A stretch of 64,000 nucleotides of DNA, from assembly GCF_023923205.1 (NCBI RefSeq), contig NZ_CP099490.1, positions 1,550,001 to 1,614,000 of the forward strand, given 5' to 3'. Origin of the DNA: Ornithinimicrobium cryptoxanthini (GTDB taxonomy: Bacteria > Actinomycetota > Actinomycetes > Actinomycetales > Dermatophilaceae). Below are positions 44,470 to 63,990 of the stretch, one piece after another; positions within the stretch are counted from its first letter, which is position 1; each line of letters begins with the position of its first letter. A model generated the notes under the pieces. The model made no database searches. It saw nothing but the letters and a program-made list of their open reading frames with translations, and was not told where the DNA came from. Position numbers and translations under genes: made by a program.

Positions 44470-44542
44470 GCGGACGTAGCTCAGTTGGTAGAGCGCAACC
44501 TTGCCAAGGTTGAGGTCGCCGGTTCGAACCCGGTCGTCCGCT
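44470..44542 (+). tRNA. tRNA-Gly(GCC)
   Basis: A complete cloverleaf: acceptor GCGGACG pairs with CGTCCGC, anticodon loop TTGCCAA (anticodon GCC) and T-loop TTCGAAC. Discriminator T; CCA is not encoded. It is the first of three clustered tRNAs. Confidence 0.95.
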
Positions 44543-44568
44543 CGGAGGCAACCACCACAATGCCTCAC

Positions 44569-44639
44569 GGTGGAGTGGCCGAGAGGCGAGGCAACGGCCT
44601 GCAAAGCCGTCTACACGGGTTCAAATCCCGTCTCCACCT
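44569..44639 (+). tRNA. tRNA-Cys(GCA)
   Basis: The acceptor GGTGGAG pairs with CTCCACC, the anticodon loop CTGCAAA carries GCA, and the T-loop is TTCAAAT. It lies 26 bp after tRNA-Gly in the same transcript. CCA is not encoded. Confidence 0.95.
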
Positions 44640-44661
44640 CGCAGATGCTCCACCTGGCCTA

Positions 44662-44736
44662 GGGCGATTGGCGCAGCGGTAGCGCGCTTCCTTGACACGG
44701 AAGAGGTCACTGGTTCAAACCCAGTATCGCCCACCA
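44662..44736 (+). tRNA. tRNA-Val(GAC)
   Basis: The acceptor GGGCGAT pairs with ATCGCCC, the anticodon loop TTGACAC carries GAC, and the T-loop is TTCAAAC. Genomic ACCA follows, so CCA is encoded at 44734-44736. The accessory island starts directly after it, making its 3' end a likely attachment site. Confidence 0.95.
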
Positions 44737-44834: not shown

Positions 44835-45044
44835 TCACCCAGCCCTCCGGCACCCGCCGACTGGTCGGGCGTCGATGAACCTCTCGATCGAGTCGAGCTT
44901 GATCCGCAATGTCTTGCGCCCGAGCCGTACGGCGTCGAGGTGCCCGTCGGCGATGTAGCGGCGCACGGTCTTCGTCGAGACCGCAAGGATGTCGGCCGCC
45001 TCGGTCAGCGACACGAGCTTGCGGGTGGTGATGGTGGCAGCCAT
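44835..45044 (-). CDS. excisionase-like helix-turn-helix protein
   Basis: The 69-aa protein is a MerR/excisionase-type winged HTH: LVSLTEAADILAVSTKTVRRYIADGHLDAVRLGRKTLRI is the usual core, read here as residues 9-47. Such Xis-like proteins direct excision of integrated elements or act as small regulators. It has a good AGGAGAAG site before the ATG at 45044. It sits just inside the island next to tRNA-Val, where an integrase would be expected, but no integrase gene is visible. This suggests a decayed or rearranged element end. Confidence 0.82.
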   Translation of the reverse strand: MAATITTRKLVSLTEAADILAVSTKTVRRYIADGHLDAVRLGRKTLRIKLDSIERFIDARPVGGCRRAG

Positions 45045-45382
45045 GGTCTTCTCCTGGGTCGGTGGCGGCCCGTCTGGCCGCACTCATCCCCCAAGGCCGC
45101 GGAGTAACCATGAGTGGCCACCGGCGTCTCCTGCGGTACCACTTCTCTGGAGGAGCGGCCATCCTGAAGGGCGGCACGGACAACCCGCGAGGCGGAGGGC
45201 GTCCCGCGCATTCGCTTCCGCGTTGCTCACGGGAAGAGGCGACGACGGTGGCCCAGCGACGCCTCCGGGCGAACGGGCCAGCGGCATCCCCTCGACAGCC
45301 GCGCGATGCGGCAAACGCGTGCGTCACTGGCGGCGGATTGATGCACCTGCGGAACGAGCGACCCGCGGCAAGAGCGGACGTT
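45045..45382. other. no gene supported
   Basis: About 340 bp between the excisionase-like gene and the next minus-strand gene. Open frames run through it on both strands, but they lack recognisable domains, good starts or typical residue composition. I see no RNA gene or strong repeat. Confidence 0.4.
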
Positions 45383-46179: not shown

Positions 46180-46250
46180 TGTCGCTTGCCAGCGTGATGG
46201 GACCACCGTGTTGCCACGAGCATGGGACCACCTGGATGTGTGAGTGAGCA

Positions 46251-47069
46251 TCACTGGTCCTGCTCCTTGGTGTCAAGGCCGCCGCGCCGGTGGGAGTCGC
46301 GTTGCCGGTAGGAGGTGCCCTCGATGACGAGGGTGTGCGCTCCGGAGGTGAGCCGGTCGACGGCGGACTGGGCCAGCAGCGCGTCGCTGGTCATGGTCAA
46401 CCACTCGGAGGGCTCCCGATTGGACGTCACGATCGTGCTGGCCCGGCGGTGCCGCTCCACGACAAGCTCGTAAAAGTCGTTGGTCTGGGTGGCATCCAGG
46501 GGGCGCAGGGCGAAGTCATCAAGGATGAGGACGTCGACGCGGGCGAGCTTGCGGAACTCGGCCTCCAGGGTGTTGTCGAGGCGGGCGGCCCGTAGCCGGG
46601 TGAACAGCTTGTCCGCCCGGGCGGCGTGCACGGACAGCCGCCGCCGGATCGCGATGTGGCCCAGCGCGGTGGCCAGGTGTGTCTTGCCGACGCCGACGGG
46701 TCCCAGGAGCAGGACGCCGTTGCCGGCCTCGGTGAAGGCCAGGGTGGTCAGGTCCGACAGCAGGGCACGGTCGTAGGTCAGGTCCTCCAGCTCGTCCCAG
46801 GACTGAAGCCGCATGGTGGGGTCCAGGCCCGCGGTGCGGGCGCGCAGCATCGCCGAGCGGGACTCCCGCCGGGTGATCTCGTCATCGAGGATGAGCTCCA
46901 GGAACGCGGCGTGGCCCATCTTGCGTTGCCGGGCCAGGGCGAGGCGTTCGGGCAGGGTCTGGGTCATCTGCCCGAGCTTGAGGGCTTTCAGGGTGCGGGT
47001 CAGGTCGGCGCCGACCGGGTCGGTCGGCCCGGACCGAGTGCCGCTGTCCGCCAGGGTGGTGGTGCTCAT
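46251..47069 (-). CDS. istB: IS21-family helper ATPase IstB (element A)
   Basis: The 272-aa IstB-type AAA+ ATPase shows Walker A GPVGVGKTHLA, Walker B LILDDFAL and the sensor-like IVTSNREPSEW. IstB assists IstA in target selection and strand transfer. The ATG at 47069 follows the istA reading region, as is normal for coupled istAB translation. It appears intact. It differs clearly in sequence from the second IstB at 52015, so the two IS21 elements are not recent copies of each other. Confidence 0.92.
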   Translation of the reverse strand: MSTTTLADSGTRSGPTDPVGADLTRTLKALKLGQMTQTLPERLALARQRKMGHAAFLELILDDEITRRESRSAMLRARTAGLDPTMRLQSWDELEDLTYDRALLSDLTTLAFTEAGNGVLLLGPVGVGKTHLATALGHIAIRRRLSVHAARADKLFTRLRAARLDNTLEAEFRKLARVDVLILDDFALRPLDATQTNDFYELVVERHRRASTIVTSNREPSEWLTMTSDALLAQSAVDRLTSGAHTLVIEGTSYRQRDSHRRGGLDTKEQDQ

Positions 47070-48686
47070 CAGTGGTCTCTTCGCGTGTGGTGGTGGCGGC
47101 TTGGCCGCCGGGGATGAGGGTGAGCTGGACCCCGCCAGCGCCGGTGTACTCGCCCGGGTCGCGGGCGAACCGTCCGCCGGGGGTGCCGGCCGCCGCCGGC
47201 AGGACCGGCTGGTGGTCTTCGGTGGCCTTGGCCAGCATGTTGGCGATCTTGGTGACGCTGACCACGTCCAGGTCCAGGTCCAGCGAGCGGGAGCAGGCTG
47301 TCTCCACGGGGTCGGGTCCGTAGCGGCGGACCAGGCCCAGGAGGCGGTACACCGAGCGCATCCTGGTCCAGGGCAGCGGGTCATCCAGCAGCCGCTCGGC
47401 GTAGATCCCGATGTTGGGTCCGTGCCCGGCGCAGGTGCCGATCAGCGCGGTCAGGTCCCGCATCGCGTACCCTGCCTTGTGCTCGGGCAGGTCCGCCCGG
47501 TCGGTGGACCGGCCACCAGCAGGTTGGCGGGGGTGGGTCTTGACCAGCTGCCCGCCGCCGGTGCCGGTGGAGTACAGCTTGACCAGCTGACTGTCGGCGC
47601 GGGCGTCCAGGTGCCGACCCAGGTGGCCTCGGGGATCGAGTACAGCGCCTTGGCGACCTCGACGTGGTAGTCGCGGTGGACCTTGACCCGGGTGAAGACG
47701 GGCTGGTCATACGGGTCAGGCACGGGCAGCAGCACCGGCGCTTCGAGCTGGGTGAACACCTCGGTCGGGCGGGCCTGGGTCGTGCCGTGGATCCGCATCC
47801 CGGCACGACCGGAGCACCAGGCCTCGGCGCGGGCCTGGGCGTCGGTCAGGTCGGTGAAGTCCTCGCCGGCCCAGAAGTTGCCGCGGACGAACTGCACCGC
47901 CCGCTCGACCCTGGGTTTGTCCTTGGGTGAGCGGACCCGGGCGGGGTCGGTGACGAACCCGGCGTGCTGGGTGTAGTCCAGCCACCCGGTGGACAGGCGC
48001 GGGTTGACCGGGTCGGCGTCGGTCACGACCGGTTTGAGGTTGTCCGGGACCAGGACTTTGAACACGCCACCGAAGAAGGCCCACGCGGCCTCACAGCCGG
48101 CGATCACCGCGGTCAGGGTTTGGGAGTAGGTCAACCACACGAACATGTGCCGCGACACCACGGCGGTGAAGGTCAACGCGTGGACCTTGCGGCGCCGCCC
48201 GTCTTCGTCGGTGAGGTAGCCCATGTGGCCGAAGTCGACCTGCAGCTCCACACCAGGCTCGCCATCATTGACCCGCACGGTGGTCTCCTTGGCCCGGTAG
48301 CCGCACCGCTGCGTGGCGAACCGGTGCAGCGTCCGGTACGGCACCACGACGCCCTGCCGGGCCAGGAGCTCCTCGATCTTCACGATCGACAGCGCCTTGG
48401 CGTCCTTCCCATCGCCCTTGACCCAGGCGGTGATCGCCTCCTCGCGGGCCGCCAGCAGCTCCCAGGAGGCGCCGTGCCCGCCCGGTCGCGCCGGGCGCAC
48501 CGCCTCCAGGACCGCCCCGATCAGCTCGTCGTCGACCGTCGCCACGTCAGCGGAGCGGGCCAGCCCGGCCTCCTGCGCGGCCTGCACGTACCGGCGCACG
48601 GTCTTCCGGTCGACCCCGGCCCGCGCCGCGACGGTGCGTAACCCCGCACCACCGAGCCAACCACGTAACACTTCTCTGACCTCGAT
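46882..48686 (-). pseudogene. istA: frameshifted IS21 transposase IstA (element A)
   Basis: The N-terminal part (48686 down to about 47625) has an HTH (GLRTVAARAGVDRKTVRRYV) and a full DDE core: LQVDFGHMGYL, VLVPDNLKPVV and DKPRVERAVQF. The frame is lost after YSIPEATWVG. The C-terminal sequence continues in the frame one base back (GHGPNIGIYAERLL, VSVTKIANMLAKA), consistent with a 1-nt deletion near 47620. The downstream frame runs past the istB start without a stop, so its true end is unclear. GTG 48686 follows a GGGAGG site. Confidence 0.8.
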
Positions 48687-48860
48687 CACGCTGACCTCCC
48701 TGAATCCCATGCCCGCTGGACCTCCACGCCGACGACACTGACGAGGTGATCCAACGAGCCATCCGAGGACCCACCGGCAAGGCGCGCCGAGTGGTCCCAT
48801 GACTGGCAACCCAGGTGGTCCCATGAACCTGGCAGAAAACCGCTCAGAGCGGTCCCATGC

Positions 48861-50631: not shown

Positions 50632-50745
50632 GAGCCGAGAGTGGCAGCGCCCATGAATCGCCGCAACAGTGAACGTCATCGCCTACAGGTTGCGCAGCGC
50701 GGCAGAGAGGGGCGCTCGTGACCCTGGCTCTGCAAGACTCCCGGC

Positions 50746-50985
50746 ATGAAGCCTCCCCAGCGTGTCGTGCATCTGCTGGTGCCCGCGGTGGTCGCCGCCG
50801 CCCTGGGGTTTGCTCTCGTATTCACCACGCTCAGGGGAACCGTCGAACCGGTCCTCGGGTGGTCCCTGGCCGTGCTCCTCTACGCCTTGGCTATTGCCCT
50901 GACCGTAATCTTGGTGCGCCTCGTGATCCGCGCGGCACCAACGCGAAGGAGTGGTCCAGGCATCGATCCCCGGTCTGACCGCTAG
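50746..50985 (+). CDS. small two-span membrane protein, paralogue 1
   Basis: The 79-aa protein starts MKPPQRVVHLLVPAVVAA and has two spans (about 8-27 and 38-60) around TLRGTVEPVLGWSLAV. It is clearly paralogous to the protein at 55015: the two share MKPP-x-R and TLRGTVEP-x-x-GWSLAV. They lie about 4.3 kb apart with IS21 element B between them, so a segment of the island was duplicated. Function unknown. Confidence 0.7.
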   Translation: MKPPQRVVHLLVPAVVAAALGFALVFTTLRGTVEPVLGWSLAVLLYALAIALTVILVRLVIRAAPTRRSGPGIDPRSDR

Positions 50986-51045
50986 ACATCACGCTCGCAG
51001 GGCGGCATGTGCGTGCGCGATCGCCCCCGACCTACGACGCGTGGT

Positions 51046-51949: not shown

Positions 51950-52014
51950 TGTCAATGGCCAGTTTGAGGTCCCCGGTTTTGGCCAGGTGAAAGTCCCCAC
52001 CCTCTGCGGGTTGA

Positions 52015-52791
52015 TCAGGGGGTCAGGTGCGCACCTCCTCGGCGTTGACGGGCTTGGCGCATGCGGTAGGACTGGCCGGTGGTGATCACAGTGGTCGCGT
52101 GGTGCAGCAGCCTGTCGAGGAGGGACACGGCGGTGGTGTGCTCGGGCATGAATCGTCCCCAGTCCTCGAAGCTGTGATGTGAGGCCAGGCCGAGGGCGCG
52201 GCGTTCGTAGGCAGCTGCCACGAACCGGAATAGCAGCTGGGCGCCGGTGTCGTCCAGCGGGGCGAAGCCCACCTCATCGATCAAGATCAGCTCGTTGCGC
52301 AACAGCGCTTCGATGTGCTTGCCGACGGTGTTGTCGGCCAGCCCTCGGTAGAGGGTCTCGACCAGGTCCGCCGCGGTCAGGTACCGCACCCGGTGGCCAG
52401 CGACGACGGCGGCGTGACCGAGCGCGACGAGGGTGTGGGACTTCCCGGTGCCGGCCGGCCCGATCATGACCACGTTCTCTGTCGCGGACACCCACTCCAA
52501 GCTGGCCAGGTAGGCCCAGGTCGGTGCTGGGATCGAGGACGCGGCCAGGTCGAACTCCTCGATGGTCTTGATGACCGGGAAGCCGGCTGCTTTGAGGCGG
52601 GTCCGTTCGTTGGAGGCGTCCCGGGCGGCGACCTCGGCCTCGACCAGCGCGCGCAGGACCTCTTCCGGGGTCCATCGTTGGGTCTTGGCCGTGACGAGCA
52701 GCTCGGGCGCGAGCTGACGCATCGTGGCCAGCTTGAGGCGGCGCAGCCCGGCGGTCAGGTCCGCGTCCAGGACCGGCGGGGTGGTACTCAC
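52015..52791 (-). CDS. istB: IS21-family helper ATPase IstB (element B)
   Basis: The 258-aa AAA+ ATPase has Walker A GPAGTGKSHTL, Walker B LILIDEVGFAPL and a C-terminal TTGQSYRMR segment. It appears intact. The GTG start at 52791 overlaps the istA stop (GTGA), the usual translational coupling of IS21 elements. It would help IstA in transposition, but the partner IstA of this element has lost part of its catalytic core. Confidence 0.93.
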   Translation of the reverse strand: MSTTPPVLDADLTAGLRRLKLATMRQLAPELLVTAKTQRWTPEEVLRALVEAEVAARDASNERTRLKAAGFPVIKTIEEFDLAASSIPAPTWAYLASLEWVSATENVVMIGPAGTGKSHTLVALGHAAVVAGHRVRYLTAADLVETLYRGLADNTVGKHIEALLRNELILIDEVGFAPLDDTGAQLLFRFVAAAYERRALGLASHHSFEDWGRFMPEHTTAVSLLDRLLHHATTVITTGQSYRMRQARQRRGGAHLTP

Positions 52792-54201
52792 GAGGACACC
52801 GCCTGCGCTGTGAGGGTGGGGGCGTACTCGGACAGGGAGCGTCTCGAACTGGTGGGCAGGTCGACGATGAGGGCTTCCCCGGCCGCACGCGGGGTAGGCA
52901 CGCCGGTGCCGGCGGCCAGGATGGAGCGCACGTCAGCTGCTTTCCACCGCTTGAACGCGACCGCTCGTTCCAGGGCGGTGATCATCGCTTCGGTGCCGTG
53001 GGCCGCGGTCAGGGTGTTGAGCTCGGCCAGCTCGTGGCCCAGGCGGGTGTGCCCAGCACCGGCGGCGCCAGCGATGAACGCTTCGGCGGCGGGGCCGAGC
53101 GCGCAGAACTCTTTCTCCGCCGCGGTGCGCGGCCGGATCGCGCGCACCGGCGCAGCTGGGCGAGCACTCCCGTAGTGCTCATCCAGCACCGACGCCGCCC
53201 CGGGTGCGACCATGTCGTGCTGGGCGTGGATCTGCCCGGTGCCAGGGTCGATGACCAGAACGTGGGGGCCGTTGACGAGTACGGCGACCTGGGAACCGAC
53301 CAGAGCGCTCGGCACCGAGTAGCGCGCCGAGTTCAGGCGGATCGTGGACAGCTTGTCGACCTTGCGTAGTACCGGCGCGGGAGCCAGGGACGGACGTAGG
53401 GAGGGCAACGGCGTGAGCAGCTCGACCTCCGTAGCCAGGCGGTCGGCTGGGACCGCGCTGATCTCTGAGTGCAGAGCGCCGTTGACCTCTTCGCACCAGG
53501 ACGCGGCGCGTTCGTTGGCGGCGACCCTTGGACGCCGGATCAGCTGCCTCACAGAAGTCCGGGCGGAACCGGAAAGCGGTGGCGAAGCGGACGTACTCCG
53601 GTGTGGGCACGACCCGGTTGGCGACGACCCCACCTTTGAGGCAGCCCATCCGGTCCGCGAGGACGACTTTCGGTGTCCCGCCCAGGACTTCGAAGCACTC
53701 GGCCAGCATGGCCATCGTCGTGGTCGCCTTTTCGTCGGCGGCGAAGCGCACGAACCGGAACCGGGACCAGGCCAGCACCGCGCAGAAGACGTGGACGCCG
53801 GCGATGACGCCCCAGTCGATGGCCAGGTGCTCACCCGGGGACCAGACCGCGGGCCGGTGGGTGCGGCCGTGCTCGGCCCGGTAGGTCTTCTTCTCCTGCG
53901 CGACGAGGCGGCGGAAGTTCCGGTCCGAGCCCGTATACCCGGCCGCGCGGGCCTTGGGCAGCAGCCGCTTGGCGCTGATCCGCCCCCGTGAGGTCTTCAT
54001 GCTTTCAGTCACGAGCTCGCGAACAGCCTCATAGTTCGCCGCACGCGGCTCCCGCACGGGACGGACAATCCCGGCGGCGTGGCGTTCCACGACGCGCTTG
54101 ACGGTCTTGTGGGTGGTGCCGCACACATCGGCGGCAGCTCGGTAGGTCCCGAGCTCGTTATAAGCGGTGATGATGTCCAACTCTTCCCTCATGTTCTTCA
54201 A
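52788..54201 (-). pseudogene. istA: internally deleted IS21 transposase IstA (element B)
   Basis: The N-terminal frame (from TTG 54201 or ATG 54192) has an HTH and the first two catalytic regions, LAIDWGVIAG and VLADRMGCLKGG, then reaches DPASKG near 53530. There the frame changes and continues as AANERAASWCEEV to the normal C-terminus. In the family about 35 residues, including the catalytic Glu of the VENLV-type segment, lie between these points. A deletion of roughly 100 bp with frame loss explains this, so the enzyme should be inactive. Confidence 0.82.
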
Positions 54202-54369
54202 TGGAACTCCCTGGGCGGTGCGGTGACTGGCTTAGACACCGACACCGTCACCGCTCAGGGGCTCAACTCATGGACGACACGAGCAGAGGGTGGGGACTTT
54301 TACTTGGCCACCAGCGGGGACCTCAATTGGCCACCAGTGGGGACTTTGCCACGGCCATGGACATACGTG

Positions 54370-54905: not shown

Positions 54906-55014
54906 TCGACACCGTGAAAGGGGTTGAGTGGTGAGCGCCGAGCGTGGCAACCAGCCAATCCTCCTGGCGGCAGGCAGCGCGTCTGCGGCTGTCGGTTCTG
55001 TCAGGCTCCCTGAC

Positions 55015-55290
55015 ATGAAACCGCCGAGGCGCATCGTCCGTCTCGTGGTGTCCGCCGTGGTGGCCGGTGTCTTGGGGTTCGGTTTCGTGTTCGCGACGCT
55101 TCGGGGCACCGTCGAACCGATCATCGGGTGGTCCCTGGCGGTGCCGCTGTACGCCTTGGCCATTGTCCTTCCCGTCGTCCTGGTGCGTGCTGTGATCCGC
55201 ACGTCACCGACCCGACACAACGGTTCAGGCATCAATGCCCGGCCTGACCGCCAGACGGCTTTGGCCAACGGCTATGGGGGTGACACGTGA
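55015..55290 (+). CDS. small two-span membrane protein, paralogue 2
   Basis: The 91-aa protein begins MKPPRRIVRLVVSAVVAG and has two spans around TLRGTVEPIIGWSLAV. It is closely related to the 79-aa protein at 50746, with a longer C-terminal tail. The ATG at 55015 is chosen by alignment with that paralogue. Its stop overlaps the next gene by 4 bp (GTGA), giving a two-gene unit. Function unknown. Confidence 0.7.
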   Translation: MKPPRRIVRLVVSAVVAGVLGFGFVFATLRGTVEPIIGWSLAVPLYALAIVLPVVLVRAVIRTSPTRHNGSGINARPDRQTALANGYGGDT

Positions 55291-55985: not shown

Positions 55986-56181
55986 GCTGCCCTGGCGGAA
56001 CACAGTCCGAACGCGGCAGATGCGTGCCTGCGCAGCCCGCGCCACGCGCGGCGGTTAGACGCACCTGTCACCGTGCGTGCAGCAGACTCCGCGCGTCTGT
56101 GCCCACCCTCTGGCGACCCTCCACTAGTCTGCGATCAATATCGCCCTTCGGCGTTCGACGTTGAAATGATCTGGGGTTCAT

Positions 56182-59100
56182 GTGTCGCCTAGGCCTGGTG
56201 GGGAGACGGACAAGCTCGGAAACAGGTACGAGCTTGCATGGGCTATCCGTCATGCCTTCTACTGCATGCTTGACGACCGACGGGCGTTGACCGCGGAAGA
56301 CATCGACATCGAGGTCGGAAGAGGTTCCGAGTTCACCTACGACACCGGACTCGTCACCGAGGCGCACCAGTTAAAACGCCAGAACGGCAACAGCAACAGT
56401 TGGACCGTCAAGGCGCTGGCCGATCTGAAGATCTTCGAGGCGGCTGCGAAGCACGTGGCGGCGGGCCGGCGTTACCACTTTGTCTCCCTTGTGCCGTGCC
56501 GGCCGCTACAAGAATTGTCCGAACGCGCTCGCAAGTCGGCAGATCTAGCGAACTTCACCGACTGCTGGCTCACCGGAGGGCTGACGCCAGTCTTTGACCA
56601 GCTGTCGGCAGCAGAGGTCCTGGGCAGTCCTCAAGCAGCCTGGGACACGCTTCGCGGAATGTGGTTCTCGGTTCAAGACGAGTACGACATCATCCGCATG
56701 AACAGCATGCTGGCCGAGTGCAACCTCAGTGGTGCTAGCGGTCACCTAATGTCTCTTGCTGTTGGCGACATCCTCCTCGACAACCTTGGCAAGCGGCTGA
56801 CTCGAACAGAACTGTTGGCCCTACTCGCTGAACAGGACATCAAGCCGCTGGCACGCGGGTCGCATCAGACGGCGCACGAGCAGGTGCTGGCGATCACCAA
56901 CAGCTGGCGCCAGTCCGTTCAGCGTGAACTCCTGCAACCGCCGATTGAGCGCGCAGAGGGCACCCAACTTGTCGAGGCTCTCGATCTGGACCGGATCGGG
57001 CTCATCGCAGGTACAGCTGGTGGCGGGAAGAGCTCTGTTCTGGAACAGGCTGTCGCCTCGCTTGAATCGACCGGCGCCGAGGTCCTGGCGCTGCGATTGG
57101 ACCGACTTGACCCGTTCGCGTCGACTGCCGACCTGGGTCGTCAGCTCGGGATCGAAACCTCTCCCGCGGTCGCCCTGGCGTTGGCGGCCGACGATCGCGC
57201 CGCCTACCTCGTCATCGACCAGCTCGACGCGGTGAGTCTCGCTTCCGGACGTATGCCGGAGAGTTTCGACGTCGTCATGGATCTCATCGGCGAAGCGTTG
57301 TCCGTGAGCGGCATGCGCGTTGTTCTGGCATGTCGCCAGTTCGACATCGATAACGATCACCGGATCCGCGCGTTGGCGTCTCGCACCGACGTCACCAGAG
57401 TGGAGGTCGGCCTACTGTCGGCGGAGGATGTAAAAGCGGCTGTGACGAGCATGGGTCTCGACCCGACGCACCTGAGTCCATCGCAGCGTGTCCTTCTGCA
57501 GACGCCGCTGCACCTCGTGCTCCTGCAAACGATCTCGTCTCAGGCTGACGCGCTGGCGTTCCAATCGAGGGGTTCTCTCTTCGAAGCCTTCTGGGAGCGC
57601 AAGCGGCAAGCGGCGCGTGCGCGGCGACAAAACGTCCGATTCAACGACGTGGTCAGTCGGATCGCCAACGCCGCGAGCGACCGGCAAGTGCTGTCTGTCC
57701 CGATCGAGATCCTGGACGATGAGGACCTTATCGAGGACGCCAACGTCCTTGTCTCAGAACATGTGCTTGCGCGGGACGGCGGTCGAATCGCGTTCTTCCA
57801 CGAGACGTTTTTCGACTATGCCTTCGCCCGACAGTGGGTGTCCCGGGCGGAGTCGCTCGTCGACTTCCTACTCCGTGACGAGCAGGAACTGTTCCGCCGC
57901 GCCCAGGTGCGCCAGATCCTGCAGCATCTCTACCAGCGGGAGCCGGACAGTTTCCGCGCCGAGGCCGAAGCAGTACTAACCGCTGACGACATCCGATTCC
58001 ACATTAAGGAGACCGTGCTCGCCGTCGTGGCCGATCTTGTTGCGCCAACGACTTCCGATGCCGAACTGATGCTGCGGGTCGCCGCGACCCATCCGCGCTT
58101 CGAACGCCGGCTCTGGCAGCAGTTGCGCCGACCACAGTGGTTCGCGCGCTTCTATGAAGATGGCCAGATCGCTGCTTGGCTCGACGGCCCGGATGAGGAC
58201 ATGCGGAATCACGCGCTGAATACGATGGTTAGCGCCGTCAAGGAGCACCCGGTATCCATCGCCGCCCTGCTGGGGGACCGCAAGACCGCGCCGGAGTATC
58301 TCGACTGGATGCGCTGGGTCAGCCGCTTTGCTGATGTCTTTCAGAACCGCCAATTGTTCGATCTGGTGCTCGAAGTCGTCCGGCAAGGCGCCTACGACGC
58401 CGCAGAGCATGAACTCTGGCTGACGGCGCACGACCTGGCTAAGCACGAGCCACTCTGGGCGATCGAGCTGCTGCAGGCTCGGCTGATCGATCATGTCGAG
58501 GCCATGACGCTCAACGAGGGCGGCCAGGTGGCTGTGCTCGGCATGCGGGAGTACGGCGCGGCTGAACTCGTAAAGGACGCCGCCAATGCTGAGCCGTTGG
58601 CATTCGTGCAGACCATGGTGCCGTATCTCCGCCAAGTTATGGCCGCCACCGCGATGGAGCCTCTCGACGACGAGCCGATTCGCGATCAGCACTTCAGCGC
58701 CCGCTTCGAGATCGATGACCTCGACGTCCGCGAGCTTGACGACGCCGTGCTGGCGGCGTCGGTCCGCTCGCTGGAGACGCTGGCAAAGACCGACCCTGAG
58801 GCGATCAGGAGCCTTCTCGACCAGTTGGCCGCTGACCCCTACGACGGATCACAGTTCCTGCTCTACCGAGCTTTGTCAGCGGGCGGCGAGCACTTCGCCG
58901 GCTGGGCGGCGAGCCTCTTGCTCGAAGGCGGCCGGCGTCTCGACTGCGGCTACATCTCAGATTCCGATTGGGTTGCGCGGGAGCTTGGCAGGGCGATTGC
59001 GCCACACGTGACCGACGAGATCCACCGGCAACTCGAGAACTTGTTTCGAGACTTGCGCAACGAGTACGAGAGTCGTCACAGCTCGGGACGTTCGGCCTTT

Positions 59101-60642
59101 ACGTTCCTGTCCGCCCTTGAAGAGTCGCGACTCACCCCGGCAGGACGACGACGCCTCGGGGAGTATCAACGGAAGTTCGAGGAGGACGCGCCTGCGAAGC
59201 CACGCGGCATCACCAGTGGGTTCATCGGTTCACCGATAGCCCCCGACGCCGCTCAGAAGATGACCGATGCGCAGTGGCTGAGCGCGATGGCAAAGCACGA
59301 CTCTGACAAGACGAACTGGAGCACCTTCACCGGGGGAGCCCGTGAACTGTCCAACGTACTGAAGGATCAAGTTGCTGCTGACCCAGCGCGCTTCGCACGG
59401 CTGGCCCTCCAGCTGACCCCCGAGTTCAATGCGGCGTACACCGATGCGCTGCTCATGGGCTTTGGTGACGCCGACGTGAGCGATGGCACCGGACCGCTGA
59501 TCTTCGAAGCCGTCCGTCACATCGCGTCGCTGGGACAGGCAGACAACGATCGGTGGCTCGGGATGGCGCTGCGGAAGTATTACCGCGAGGTGCCCCTTGA
59601 CCTGGTTGAACTGATCCGAGACCGCACTCTGCACGCCCCAGACCCGACCGACGCTTCCCCAGTGATCATTCGCGATGGCACGGACGGACAAAGTGCTGCG
59701 GACATGCGCATGAACGGCATGAACACGGCGCGCGGAAGTTTGGCAGAAGCGCTCGGCGACCTGTTGATCACCGACAGTGACGGCCAGCGAACTCTCCTGG
59801 TCGTGCCATACCTCAGCGCGATGGCCAGCGACCCGGTGCTAAGCGTTCGCTCGTGTGTTGCACACACCCTGGCCGCCTCACTCCGGCATGCTCGCCCAGA
59901 GGTCCTGACGGCGTTCTCAACCCTGATCGATGCTGACGATCGTCTCCTCGCCGCCGGGTTCGTACAGCAGCTGATGCTCTACATCGGCAACGTGAATCCC
60001 GAGGTCATCGATCCGGTCATTCAGCGCATGCTGGCTTCGGAGGACGCCGAGGCTCGTGAGGCCGGTGGCGCCATCGCGGCGTTCGCGGCCCTGGAGTGGG
60101 ATCGCCCAGTCCTTATGCAACAAGCACTGTCTGGGGACCTCCGTGTCCGCAAGGGTGTCGCGCAAATCAGTGCTGGGCGTGTCGACCGCACCTCTAACGC
60201 CGAGCTGGCCACGGCAACCCTGATCCGCTTGATGAACGACGACGCGGATGAGGTCCGTAAGGAGGCGGCTGCAGTGGCGCCGCACCTTCGCGAGCACCCG
60301 CTCCAGCCGTTCGTTCAACTGCTGACGGCCCTGATCGACTCGCCGTCTTACGACCACGCCACGCCGCAGTTGCTGCTTACGCTGCAGTACGCGCCGGACA
60401 AGGTCGATGAATTGGTCTTGAAGGCTGCACAGCGGTTCGTTGATGTCTTCGGGAACGACGCCGCTGACATTCGTACCGGAGCAGCCGGAGACGCCCACTA
60501 CATCAGTGAGCTGGTGGTACGTGGACTAGCGCAGTCCCGGGACCGTACCCATCGAGCGGCGCTGCTCGACGTCTTGGACCTGCTCCTTGAGCTGGGCGTC
60601 TACGGCATTAATGACGCCATAGCGGAATCAGAGCGGATCTAG
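56182..60642 (+). CDS. Avs-like STAND NTPase with N-terminal PD-(D/E)xK-type nuclease region
   Basis: This 1486-aa multidomain protein starts at GTG 56182. Residues about 1-115 resemble Cap4/DUF4297-type nucleases: candidate acidic residues D41/D43/E44 and E60 precede the QLK triplet at 63-65. Residues about 260-560 form a P-loop NTPase: Walker A GTAGGGKS (277-284), Walker B YLVIDQLD (Asp346), CRQFD, then the winged-helix-like FFHETFFDYAFARQW near 537. From about 600 to the end it is helical with HEAT-like segments (SVRSCVAHTLAASLRHARPE; DADEVRKEAAAVAPHLREHP). Nuclease, STAND ATPase and long sensor region together match anti-phage Avs proteins, in which ligand binding triggers DNA cleavage. 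The trigger is unknown. The gene is solitary, in an island, with composition unlike the core. Confidence 0.75.
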   Translation: MSPRPGGETDKLGNRYELAWAIRHAFYCMLDDRRALTAEDIDIEVGRGSEFTYDTGLVTEAHQLKRQNGNSNSWTVKALADLKIFEAAAKHVAAGRRYHFVSLVPCRPLQELSERARKSADLANFTDCWLTGGLTPVFDQLSAAEVLGSPQAAWDTLRGMWFSVQDEYDIIRMNSMLAECNLSGASGHLMSLAVGDILLDNLGKRLTRTELLALLAEQDIKPLARGSHQTAHEQVLAITNSWRQSVQRELLQPPIERAEGTQLVEALDLDRIGLIAGTAGGGKSSVLEQAVASLESTGAEVLALRLDRLDPFASTADLGRQLGIETSPAVALALAADDRAAYLVIDQLDAVSLASGRMPESFDVVMDLIGEALSVSGMRVVLACRQFDIDNDHRIRALASRTDVTRVEVGLLSAEDVKAAVTSMGLDPTHLSPSQRVLLQTPLHLVLLQTISSQADALAFQSRGSLFEAFWERKRQAARARRQNVRFNDVVSRIANAASDRQVLSVPIEILDDEDLIEDANVLVSEHVLARDGGRIAFFHETFFDYAFARQWVSRAESLVDFLLRDEQELFRRAQVRQILQHLYQREPDSFRAEAEAVLTADDIRFHIKETVLAVVADLVAPTTSDAELMLRVAATHPRFERRLWQQLRRPQWFARFYEDGQIAAWLDGPDEDMRNHALNTMVSAVKEHPVSIAALLGDRKTAPEYLDWMRWVSRFADVFQNRQLFDLVLEVVRQGAYDAAEHELWLTAHDLAKHEPLWAIELLQARLIDHVEAMTLNEGGQVAVLGMREYGAAELVKDAANAEPLAFVQTMVPYLRQVMAATAMEPLDDEPIRDQHFSARFEIDDLDVRELDDAVLAASVRSLETLAKTDPEAIRSLLDQLAADPYDGSQFLLYRALSAGGEHFAGWAASLLLEGGRRLDCGYISDSDWVARELGRAIAPHVTDEIHRQLENLFRDLRNEYESRHSSGRSAFTFLSALEESRLTPAGRRRLGEYQRKFEEDAPAKPRGITSGFIGSPIAPDAAQKMTDAQWLSAMAKHDSDKTNWSTFTGGARELSNVLKDQVAADPARFARLALQLTPEFNAAYTDALLMGFGDADVSDGTGPLIFEAVRHIASLGQADNDRWLGMALRKYYREVPLDLVELIRDRTLHAPDPTDASPVIIRDGTDGQSAADMRMNGMNTARGSLAEALGDLLITDSDGQRTLLVVPYLSAMASDPVLSVRSCVAHTLAASLRHARPEVLTAFSTLIDADDRLLAAGFVQQLMLYIGNVNPEVIDPVIQRMLASEDAEAREAGGAIAAFAALEWDRPVLMQQALSGDLRVRKGVAQISAGRVDRTSNAELATATLIRLMNDDADEVRKEAAAVAPHLREHPLQPFVQLLTALIDSPSYDHATPQLLLTLQYAPDKVDELVLKAAQRFVDVFGNDAADIRTGAAGDAHYISELVVRGLAQSRDRTHRAALLDVLDLLLELGVYGINDAIAESERI

Positions 60643-61000
60643 CTAAAGGCACACGATCAGCCGGGCGAAACGCCTATGACTGCGGGGAGCGCTGTAACCA
60701 CCACTCGGGGCCACCCAACGATGGTGCGGTCAACCTTCAACCCACATGACCCTGCTCAGCCGCATCAATCTGGGCTGCTAGAGACTGGACGCAGGGTCGG
60801 TGTCTGGCCAGACTCGATCTAGGTGCTCGACGGGACGCTCTCTTTTGGGCTGCCCACCCTCGCTCCTGTGGGTGTGGCTCACTTTCGGTCTGCTGCCCGT
60901 CGGGCGCCGCTGACGAGGCGTGGCTCAAGAAGGGACTGCCCTGCTCGTAGTAGCACTGCCCACCTCGCCGTCCACATTTCGGTACGAGCGTCAGGTTGGG
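60643..61000 (+). other. non-coding leader of the IS110 element, candidate bridge-RNA region
   Basis: About 360 bp without a credible gene between the STAND gene and the IS110 transposase. IS110-group elements are known to encode a structured bridge RNA in the non-coding region upstream of the transposase. Several G/C-rich complementary blocks between about 60820 and 60960 could fold, but I cannot define the RNA or the left end of the element. Confidence 0.4.
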
Positions 61001-62320
61001 ATGAAGAACATGGGACAGGTCATCATCGGGGTTGATCCCCACAAACTGTCGGCCACCATCGAGGTCGTCGACCAGCAGGAGAAACTGCTGGGTGCAGGGC
61101 GGTTCAGCACCGACCAAGCCGGGTACGCGGCGATGCGCACGTACGCGAAGTCGTGGCCCGATCACATCTGGGCGGTGGAGGGCGCCAACGGTGCCGGCCG
61201 CCCCCTGGCGCAACGGTTGCTCGAGGCCGGTGAGCACGTCGTGGATGTGCCGGCCAAGCTCGCTGCACGGGTCCGGCTCTTTGACACCGGGCACAACCGG
61301 AAAACGGACGCCTTGGATGCGCATTCGATCGCGATGGTCGCGGTCCGCACCCACGGGTTGCGGGTGTTGAAGGTCGACGGCCAGCTCGAGGCGTTACGGA
61401 TGTTGGCCGACCGGCGGGAGGCGCTGACCCGGCGACGGGTCGCCGTGGTCAACCGGCTGCAGGCGCTGCTGGCCGAGTTGCTTCCCGGACAGGCTAAGAA
61501 GGACATCACCACAGGTCAGGCCAAGAAGCTGCTGGTCAGCGTGCGGCCACGAGACGTCGCAGGGAAGACCCGTCGGCGGATCGCGGCCGAGGAACTGGCC
61601 GAGCTGGTCGCCGTGGAGGCCAAGATGAGGAAGGCCACCGCCGAGCTGAAAACCATGGTGTTGGCCCGGGGCTCAACGCTGATGGACCTGCACGGTGTGG
61701 GCCCGGTGGTCGCCGCGCGGGTCCTGGCGGACGTCGGTGATATCGCCCGGTTCGCCGACCGGAACCGGTTCGCGTCCTGGACCGGGACTGCACCGCTGGA
61801 TGCCTCTTCCGGGGAGCAGAACCGGCACCGTCTGTCTCGGGCCGGGAACCGGCGGATGAACCACATGATCCACATCGCCGCGGTCACCCAGCTGCGGCTG
61901 GACACCGAGGGCCGGGCCTACTACCGGCGCAAGAGAGCCGAGGGCAAGAAGCCGATGGAAGCCCTGCGCTGCCTCAAACGCCGGATCTCAGATGCCATCT
62001 ACCGGCAGCTGGTCACCGACGCTCAACGCGTGACCGAGGCACGGCTCGAGGCGGGTCCGGGAGGGCACTGCGGGGCGTCACATGATTCCAGCGCGGCCGG
62101 CTCGCACCCGCGCACCGGCACTTCGGATCAGCCACTTCCCGGACCCGCACCCTCGACGCTACCGCTCACCGCGACCACTGGAAAGCCCCGCCCGGGACCG
62201 GCTCCTCAGCACCCGCGTCGACGTGCCGGAGCCGTCAAGGTGGAGCGCCCCACCGGACGAACGACCTTGACGGCGACAAGCGTTGGCGCACACTCAAAAG
62301 AGCCGATCCCCACCCCTTGA
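61001..62320 (+). CDS. IS110-family transposase
   Basis: The 439-aa DEDD transposase has the N-terminal RuvC-like domain: IIGVDPHKLSATIEV with the first Asp, AVEGANGAGRPL with the Glu, and KTDALDAHSIAM with the last Asp pair. The C-terminal Transposase_20 domain has LHGVGPVVAARVLADVGDI, TGTAPLDASSGEQNRHRLSRAGNRRMNHM and the catalytic Ser region. The final about 75 residues are a Pro/Thr/Ser-rich tail, seen in actinobacterial members. It lacks terminal inverted repeats, as is normal for this family. It appears intact. Confidence 0.93.
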   Translation: MKNMGQVIIGVDPHKLSATIEVVDQQEKLLGAGRFSTDQAGYAAMRTYAKSWPDHIWAVEGANGAGRPLAQRLLEAGEHVVDVPAKLAARVRLFDTGHNRKTDALDAHSIAMVAVRTHGLRVLKVDGQLEALRMLADRREALTRRRVAVVNRLQALLAELLPGQAKKDITTGQAKKLLVSVRPRDVAGKTRRRIAAEELAELVAVEAKMRKATAELKTMVLARGSTLMDLHGVGPVVAARVLADVGDIARFADRNRFASWTGTAPLDASSGEQNRHRLSRAGNRRMNHMIHIAAVTQLRLDTEGRAYYRRKRAEGKKPMEALRCLKRRISDAIYRQLVTDAQRVTEARLEAGPGGHCGASHDSSAAGSHPRTGTSDQPLPGPAPSTLPLTATTGKPRPGPAPQHPRRRAGAVKVERPTGRTTLTATSVGAHSKEPIPTP

Positions 62321-62379: not shown

Positions 62380-63150
62380 TCACAGAGTCGACCGACGGAA
62401 CGCTTCGAGGTCGGTGACGGCCTTGGCTGCACGGCGACGGACCGTCCGTGCCGACGCTGCGTAGTCGTCGGCGACCAGCTCAGCCACCGAGGGGGTCATC
62501 AGGCCACCCCGGCCCCGTCGTGCGGGTACGTTCAGCCGGGCCGCCTCGTGTGCGACGTCCATGAGCAGGGCCCGGTCTTCGCGCGTCAGTGCGCCCATCT
62601 CGACAGCGTCCTCGAGAAGCGCAGCCAACTCGCACTCGGGGTCCGGCCCGGCATCTACGTCGGGCACGTCCGGGACCGAGCCCATCGGGACCGCCGATGC
62701 CCAAACGCGGTCGCGACGCACCGCTGCGTCACCGACTCCGAGGTCGGCCATCACGTCGCGCCGAGTCCGGGCTAGGAGCGTGGCTGCGACGCGCCGCGGT
62801 GGGTCGCCACGGTAGGTCCGGACCGTCAGCCACAGCTGTCCGGCGACGAGAGCGTCGATGTCGGGGGAGAGGTCGGCGAGCTGCCGGGCCAGGTTCACCG
62901 CGCCCGGGACCAGGAGCCAGGTGATCACGGAGACCGCCTCCACATAGTGTGCGGCCGTCCGCGCGAGAGCCGCCAGCACCTCATCCCGTGCTTCCGGTGA
63001 GGCCTGACTCAGCCAGGGCGGCAGGTCGAGCAGGTCCGCGACGACCGAGAGGGCCGGTTGGATCCGGCCCCAGTCCTGCCAGTGATCCCGTGCCCACCGC
63101 AGCGGGGGTCGGTCGTGTGTGTCCACCCCAAGACAGGTCGCTACGCTCAT
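62380..63150 (-). CDS. sigma-like/HTH DNA-binding protein of mobile-element type
   Basis: The 256-aa protein starts at ATG 63150 after a GGAAGGAG site. N-terminal WARDHWQDWGRIQPALSVV and the central DIDALVAGQLWLTVRTY stretch match a family often found near actinobacterial mobile elements. The C-terminus, ELVADDYAASARTVRRRAAK, is a helix-turn-helix like sigma region 4. It probably regulates transcription within the element. The specific target is not known. Confidence 0.65.
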   Translation of the reverse strand: MSVATCLGVDTHDRPPLRWARDHWQDWGRIQPALSVVADLLDLPPWLSQASPEARDEVLAALARTAAHYVEAVSVITWLLVPGAVNLARQLADLSPDIDALVAGQLWLTVRTYRGDPPRRVAATLLARTRRDVMADLGVGDAAVRRDRVWASAVPMGSVPDVPDVDAGPDPECELAALLEDAVEMGALTREDRALLMDVAHEAARLNVPARRGRGGLMTPSVAELVADDYAASARTVRRRAAKAVTDLEAFRRSTL

Positions 63151-63530
63151 CGTCGTCTCCTTCCACACCGGGTCGATGTGGCCCAGACGATGACGTGAGG
63201 ACGCTCCCGGATTCGTCCCCCCCAAGCGCCCACAACGGCGTCCCCCGCAACCGCCTGGCCCGCGTCCGTCGTTCCAGTGGCCGACGTTTCCGCAGGTCAC
63301 AGCCCGCCCCCACCGCTCCCGGGAGCGTCCCCCCCGGATGTGGGCGAACCTTCCCACCCAACCGCCCATGTCACGTATCGCCGCAGGTCAGAGCCGCGCC
63401 CCCAAGAAAGTCGAGCACGTCCCCAAGAAAGTTGGTGACGGAGAGGTGGTGCGGGGCCACGTCGAGGCCCACGACGGCTGCTCAGTCCAGCGGCCAGCGG
63501 CGAGAGGGCACTCCTCGACCAGGCCTGTAC
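63151..63530. other. gene-free region with inverted repeats
   Basis: About 380 bp. GGACGCTCCCGG (63199-63210) is the exact inverse of CCGGGAGCGTCC (63319-63330), and the second is part of a 12-bp palindrome GCTCCCGGGAGC (63315-63326). A short direct repeat, ccccaagaaagt, occurs twice around 63403-63433. No gene is supported. Confidence 0.5.
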
Positions 63531-63546: not shown

Positions 63547-63576
63547 GCTGGCTGGGTGATCAGGAAGGTGAAGGGT

Positions 63577-63990
63577 ATGAGCAAGCACACCGCGTTCTGG
63601 GAGGACCTGAGCCGCGACCTCCAGGACCCGGAGTTCCTCCGCGATTACGTCGTCGAGTCCATGCGCATCTCGACCATCGACTCGGTCGTCAACGCCATCG
63701 ACGACGCGCGCGAGGCTGCGGGGATGTCCAAGGCCGAGCTGGCGCGGGCCATCCAGAAGGAACCAGCGACCATCCGTCGCCTTCTGTCCTCCGAGAGCTC
63801 CAATCCGACCCTGGGCACGCTGGCCGAGGTGGCGGCAGTCCTCGGGCTGCGCATCACCGTCGAGCCCATCCCCGAGGCCGAGCGCGGTCAGATCACCCAG
63901 CCGTTGCTCGAAGGTCGGGCAGCTGACCCGATCAAGCTTGCCGAGCACCTGACCACGTTGCGTAGGCCCAGAACGAGGCTTCCCGCCTGA
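63577..63990 (+). CDS. HigA-like HTH antitoxin/regulator
   Basis: The 137-aa protein has an N-terminal helical region (EFLRDYVVESMRISTIDSVVNA) and an XRE-type HTH (MSKAELARAIQKEPATIRRLL, cut short here) followed by PTLGTLAEVAAVLGLRI. This matches addiction-module antidote (HigA/graA-like) proteins. No HigB toxin gene lies upstream, and the window ends 10 bp after its stop, so a partner could only follow. ATG 63577 is used; a GTG at 63556 is possible. Confidence 0.75.
   Translation: MSKHTAFWEDLSRDLQDPEFLRDYVVESMRISTIDSVVNAIDDAREAAGMSKAELARAIQKEPATIRRLLSSESSNPTLGTLAEVAAVLGLRITVEPIPEAERGQITQPLLEGRAADPIKLAEHLTTLRRPRTRLPA

Follow-up and report, generated by a model that had tools for sequence, protein, structure and literature searches.

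The analysis of a 64,000-nucleotide (nt) stretch of the Ornithinimicrobium cryptoxanthini genome (contig NZ_CP099490.1, positions 1,550,001 to 1,614,000; hereafter the window, whose own numbering is used throughout) identifies a single gene, the 1486 amino acid (aa) product of which is probably an Avs-like defence protein. It belongs to a large, horizontally moving family, present mainly in Actinomycetota, that is related to the known Avs defence proteins and yet has gone unrecognized as such. The models used place the protein in none of the types Avs1-Avs5. We estimate at roughly 80% the probability that this protein operates as a single-protein anti-phage sensor-effector working like Avs proteins. 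The basis for this reading lies in predicted folds, conserved catalytic and NTPase motifs, mobility as a single gene, a patchy distribution, carriage as cargo of an integrative element and the exchange of effectors among relatives. The gene and the domains of its product are arranged as follows:

56182-60642, forward strand: single gene for a nuclease-STAND-helical repeat protein, from the list of open reading frames; 1486 aa, GTG start
56200-56541, forward strand: N-terminal PD-(D/E)xK nuclease core of the DUF4297/Cap4 type, residues about 7-120, with a fold match extending to residue 219
56296-56298, 56329-56331 and 56368-56376, forward strand: candidate catalytic residues E39, E50 and Q63-x-K65, respectively, from conservation
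56932-57561, forward strand: STAND/NACHT NTPase, residues about 251-460, from Pfam, conservation and fold
57010-57033, forward strand: Walker A, residues 277-284 (G277-S284)
57208-57234, forward strand: Walker B strand with D346-x-x-D349
57334-57336, forward strand: invariant R385 of the NTPase
57562-57861, forward strand: winged-helix region, including FFHETFFDY (residues 538-546, 57793-57819)
57862-59181, forward strand: helical domain, residues 561-1000, from the predicted structure; part of the putative sensor
59182-60639, forward strand: HEAT-like solenoid, residues 1001-1486; putative sensor

Both the extent and the length of this reading frame agree with the original prediction for this DNA, and its start position agrees with that of relatives, which open with the same stretch resembling MSPRPGGE.DK.GN.YE. 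At 62.9%, the G+C content of the gene is below that of the window (68.6%). A tRNA-Thr called by ARAGORN inside the gene (58785-58873, reverse strand) is probably spurious, since it lies antisense in the reading frame and has no Rfam call at the gathering score.

Three protein searches at expectation values (E) up to 1e-3, with about 7990 candidates scored in each, returned 358, 852 and 250 proteins, of which the best 120 were listed in every case. Residue counts were made on 241 sequences (the window protein and 240 homologues), which were found near the query or via a profile of its relatives and hence do not constitute an unbiased sample. The Walker A and Walker B motifs and the FHETF-type motif near residue 537 had all been pointed out originally, and they hold well across this set: K283 is kept in 241 of 241 sequences, D346 in 239, and H540, E541, D545 and Y546 in all of them. 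Of the nuclease motif proposed at the same time (E60, Q63, K65), the last two residues stand, with Q63 present in 235 sequences (three gaps, three H) and K65 in 232 (three gaps, three Q, two R, one V), but E60 is less strictly conserved (E in 210, Q in 21). Judged by conservation, E39 (229 sequences; eight gaps, three K, one D) and E50 (232; six gaps, one Q, one G, one D) are better acidic candidates than E60. The N-terminal domain thus combines a predicted fold of the DUF4297/Cap4 type with conserved acidic residues and a (D/E/Q)xK motif, while the central region displays the Walker motifs, the NACHT-like fold and the winged-helix region of a STAND NTPase, for which the Pfam nSTAND1 model falls just below its cut-off (26.5 versus 27.1 bits). 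The C-terminal part, described beforehand as helical and HEAT-like, is indeed predicted to be helical with a predicted local distance difference test (pLDDT) score of 89.6; its HEAT matches also remain below the Pfam cut-offs, and a score for the arrangement of helical repeats says nothing about function. Fold and conservation, together with nuclease and STAND matches in structure searches, accordingly bear out the proposed layout of nuclease, STAND core and repeat sensor. An effector, a STAND domain and C-terminal repeats in one chain are the layout of Avs (AVAST) systems, a likeness that concerns layout only.

How close the protein stands to the characterized Avs types is less straightforward. 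Foldseek places Avs4 (8dgf) and Avs3 (SeAvs3, 8dgc), which also consist of an N-terminal nuclease, a STAND core and C-terminal repeats, first for the N-terminal half, and the PADLOC Avs2 models weakly match a few of 11 relatives (best 2e-5). These matches speak for a far-diverged Avs2, Avs3 or Avs4, with a sensor recognizing terminase or portal as in the characterized types. We nonetheless consider such a reading rather unlikely, because a sequence search with a profile built from the 11 relatives recovers another structure, 9n00, at 3.5e-49 but not a single Avs chain up to E 1; because careful structure alignment scores NLRC4 and NLRP3 above Avs4; and because neither PADLOC (E up to 1) nor NCBIfam (E up to 10) has an Avs model that matches the window protein. 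PADLOC includes models of Avs1b and Avs2, as seen in the scans of relatives, and presumably of the other Avs types as well, so that the protein is not filed as Avs1-Avs5. On the divergent or undescribed Avs branch originally suggested, the evidence is divided: Avs3 and Avs4 chains are retrieved by fold, but neither sequence profiles nor Avs models give a match. For the C-terminal half, the best 50 structure matches listed are generic HEAT/ARM proteins. The nuclease, in turn, differs from that of the DUF4297/Cap4 proteins (HerA-DUF4297, 9c1m; EcCap4) in being fused to a STAND sensor and in giving no Pfam sequence match among the rows listed.

Among the 48 rows obtained at E up to 1 with the profile of 11 relatives against PDB, only 9n00 is convincing, with two matching stretches, and it is likewise the sole convincing match of the N-terminal profile; the second-best row (1.6e-4) is a designed repeat protein. 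The window protein itself gives a weak PDB match to 9e5c (E 0.022). The protein in 9n00, 9n01 and 9yix (an 'AAA family ATPase' of 1523 aa) has the same layout, the profile covering 55-647 (nuclease, NTPase and winged helix) and 1000-1497 (the C-terminal end), but its printed fragment is only 22% identical to the window protein over 583 aligned columns, and 9n00 is not among the best 50 matches listed in each of four structure searches. The literature search yielded no paper naming 9N00, 9N01 or 9YIX and no description attributable to that protein, PDC-M54 included. The best PADLOC row for the fragment is the candidate system PDC-M54A (3.1e-9), which also matches the NTPase region in 8 of the 11 relatives at E up to 0.1 (3.3e-20 in L009); the match is local only, and up to E 1 the window protein itself gives none. 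Against plasmids, the fragment retrieves six records (23-32% identical), cyanobacterial and from Segatella.

In the first search, the best 120 of 358 proteins share 65-96% identity with the window protein and 115 of them cover 100% of it; 63 of the 240 proteins in the first two sets are exactly 1486 aa long. Conservation along the chain is fairly even. For residues 1-120, 121-250, 251-460, 461-560, 561-1000 and 1001-1486, mean identities to the window protein are 0.78, 0.72, 0.77, 0.85, 0.69 and 0.74 in the first set (117 of 120 proteins, after removing three shorter than 1430 aa) and 0.53, 0.38, 0.52, 0.56, 0.41 and 0.47 in the second (113 of 120, after removing fused and short ones). Hence, the putative sensor is not hypervariable.

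Housekeeping-style conservation, which would have spoken against the original prediction, is not what the distribution shows: among 31 genomes of the genus, only the genome of the window carries the gene. In a sample of the class, in which at most two candidates were scored per genome, 9 of 394 genomes have a match, its own included. For the genus of G347, judged from P0163 to be Streptomyces, 13 of 295 sampled genomes match a 238-residue piece, and in two or more of these the match is confined to the protease tail. The copy of Nocardioides stalactiti, of the same class as the host and a different order, is 92.0% identical in protein sequence, and the DNA held in common with it is confined to the following block:

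56080-60775, forward strand: 90.6% DNA identity with the Nocardioides copy, with abrupt ends on both sides

This block, the unit that moves, comprises the gene with about 100 bp before it and 135 bp after it. DNA homology is similarly limited to 56183-60686 in Pimelobacter, to 56096-60636 in two Corynebacterium records and to a stretch within 56188-60605 in Rothia. In the five loci compared, out of six named, homology ends at or close to the gene, which travels alone. The copies of Rothia endophytica (L006) and Mycobacteroides abscessus (P0118), species of different orders, are 98.4% identical, a near-identity indicative of recent transfer. No match was obtained in 50,697 phage records, a pattern search of viral contigs for close relatives gave none, and none of the 13 matching plasmid records matches across 80% of the protein.

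Effector exchange provides a further argument. One relative (L013) is similar to the window protein over the NTPase and C-terminal part (residues 253-1481, 30% identity) and has a TIR-like start; a TIR_2 match (4.9e-21) is found in one of the 11 relatives scanned with Pfam, and P0241, which is 96% identical, carries TIR_2 as well. In another relative (L012) the similarity begins only at residue 223. Within the third set (best 120 of 250), the nuclease profile matches 100 of 120 proteins at E below 1e-3, some of them partially; ten of the 20 negative proteins, those among the first 50 listed, comprise the TIR form, three proteins whose first residues fall within or beyond the NTPase and six that open with a short stretch of another kind.

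Three relatives (P0136, P0151 and P0187; 1747-1749 aa, P0151 being from Streptomyces) bear an additional N-terminal trypsin-like domain, absent from the window protein, in which the catalytic H, D and S motifs are present. Exactly these three, and no others among the 241 sequences, carry the combination K39, H63 and Q65. In a 30-sequence NTPase tree they group as one clade with support of 1.0, so that the gain of the protease together with the residue change is most simply explained by one event rather than three. Tuck et al. 2025 (PMC12799240), who treat LmuA and Avs1b among other systems, describe something comparable in Hachiman, where HamA fused to a protease has lost its nuclease motif; the present proteins resemble those protease-fused Hachiman and AVAST proteins in their N-terminal trypsin-like protease and lost nuclease residues, but constitute another STAND family. 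The PADLOC LmuA model matches the protease part of P0136 and P0151, the two scanned, at 2.5e-8 and 2.9e-7, and the Avs1b model matches the same parts weakly (about 1.5e-4). These matches speak for kinship of the protease with pairs of a protease and a partner pro-nuclease, but the nearest protease relative found for P0151, 72% identical and fused to VMAP domains in G426 (L039:7779-14375), speaks for another source. The two genes following this Trypsin-VMAP gene resemble, by eye, a MoxR-type ATPase and a vWA-type protein. Protease-fused genes are absent from 101 genomes of the genus of G347, and 295 genomes of that genus contain no clear case, with one weak match crossing the junction (G541; 26%, with a stop inside).

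Taken together with the conservation of the C-terminal part, these exchanges allow a more specific and tentative proposal, namely that this is an undescribed, actinobacteria-wide family of single-gene Avs-like proteins with a fixed-length, unusually conserved sensor for an invader component outside those of Avs1-Avs5, in which the nuclease may be exchanged for TIR, or a protease gained while the nuclease decays into a scaffold. Avs1-Avs4 are reported to respond to terminase, portal or Ksap1, and JADA is what Avs5 senses (PMC12931631).

Regarding mechanism, the window protein is most likely, by analogy, an invader-triggered, oligomerizing DNase. In the resting state, the STAND NTPase would keep the protein inactive; binding of a conserved invader-derived protein by the C-terminal helical/HEAT part would then switch the NTPase domain, and the resulting oligomerization would pair the N-terminal nuclease domains, which might cut DNA irrespective of its source and thus abort the infection. 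Ligand binding, oligomerization, DNA cleavage and cell death are all inferred here from known STAND, Avs and DUF4297 proteins. In this regard, PMC11291478 describes DUF4297-HerA as a double-stranded DNA nuclease requiring dimerized DUF4297 domains, and SeAvs3 as tetramerizing upon viral-protein binding and so pairing its nuclease domains. If this reading holds, a large, transferable, one-gene immune sensor would be added to the repertoire of actinobacteria, in which, to our knowledge, work on STAND defence proteins has been scarce. With their altered catalytic residues, the three relatives that carry a fused protease further represent a natural experiment pointing to the catalytic residues, and they suggest that a nuclease fold may persist as a scaffold once its activity has been replaced, extending the published protease-HamA fusions of Hachiman.

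The neighbours of some relatives are congruent with a role in defence, although the scan covered a few chosen loci and gives no measure of enrichment. About 40 bp separate the start of the Rothia relative from the type III restriction gene before it, ahead of which come the corresponding methylase and a DrmD-like helicase; the neighbours of the TIR form match JetD3, JetC3 and JetA3 of Wadjet; and genes annotated as multiubiquitin and ThiF occur near the Sinorhizobium relative. Two Streptomyces relatives have a similar gene of unassigned family in the vicinity of their STAND gene (L033:6044-6844 and L034:6543-7376), the L033 copy giving no Pfam or PADLOC match.

Several observations weigh against the proposed function. 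The neighbouring reading frames scanned in the window (with Pfam only) include no known defence gene, and metabolic genes surround the Rhizobium relative. For the window protein, PADLOC offers just two weak rows resembling RecD (E 0.035 and 0.068) and NCBIfam two irrelevant ones, and DUF4297 and Cap4 models are missing both from its Pfam rows and from the 25 of 28 Pfam families listed for the 11 relatives. The two halves of the protein were modelled separately, so that their mutual arrangement is not given by the models, and four of the nine matches in the class sample span only part of the protein. Moreover, K65 is replaced by R or V in three protease-free relatives (P0148, P0207 and P0235), which weakens a strict reading. 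STAND proteins are common in Actinomycetota and many of them are regulators, and a non-defence role in signalling or regulated DNA processing might be envisaged; it is very improbable given the conserved nuclease residues, the effector swaps, the patchiness, the recent inter-order transfers and the defence neighbours of some relatives. The defence effector of the original prediction is a probable reading, drawn from the domain architecture, the mobility of the gene, the genes beside its relatives and the swapping of effectors.

The genomic setting of the gene is defined by the following features:

44470-44736: cluster of tRNA-Gly, tRNA-Cys and tRNA-Val
44662-44736, forward strand: tRNA-Val, its 3' end (44713-44734) having an exact second copy outside the window, 21.1 kb further downstream (L043:1822-1843)
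44835-45083, reverse strand: excisionase-like HTH_17 protein at the tRNA end (Pfam HTH_17, 3.2e-12)
46212-48834, reverse strand: insertion sequence (IS) element of the IS21 type (istA, istB), with terminal inverted repeats
51964-54326, reverse strand: second IS21-type element, istA split across two overlapping frames
60920-62320, forward strand: IS110-type transposase gene, downstream of the STAND gene
62380-63369, reverse strand: gene of unassigned function, also in an element at the same tRNA of congener G007 (87% DNA identity over 62380-63220)

The final 24 nt of tRNA-Val are repeated 21.1 kb downstream with 2 mismatches (22 nt exact), a Phage_integrase gene (3.4e-16) lies just inside the downstream copy, and the two sites are likely the ends of an element. 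The comparison took in nine congeners over 20 kb starting at the tRNA. In G007, the tRNA and the right-end gene are the same but enclose about 17 kb of different DNA, TrwC relaxase included. The gene at 62380-63369 is probably element backbone because it is common to both elements. G030 matches a stretch near the integrase end (64534-65132, 71%), and the other seven have no common piece of at least 150 bp between 45.4 and 64 kb. At least four congeners (G007, G010, G021 and G030) have fragments of the tRNA-Val 3' end no more than about 22 kb away from the tRNA, and the locus resembles a hot spot for integration. On this sequence evidence the STAND gene is cargo of an integrative element, and the solitary gene in an island beside IS elements, as originally perceived, corresponds to a probable tRNA-Val-bounded element with two IS21-type copies and an IS110-type gene. 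Such carriage, like the adjacency of a TIR-carrying relative to genes of Wadjet, which acts on plasmids, would also fit a defence against plasmids or other mobile elements, or a guard of the carrier element, instead of phages; we regard this as quite unlikely, for homology stops short of the neighbouring genes in five named relatives and no element-specific partner was seen.

Some further features were noted. A plasmid search with IstB of the second IS21 showed such genes to be common, and nothing more. At 63556-63990, a stretch common to the G007 element encodes a Cro/C1-type helix-turn-helix protein weakly similar to addiction-module antidotes. Finally, the second IS21 is flanked by a direct repeat of 248 nt with 76% identity (50740-50987 and 55009-55256), which encodes a small membrane-like protein.

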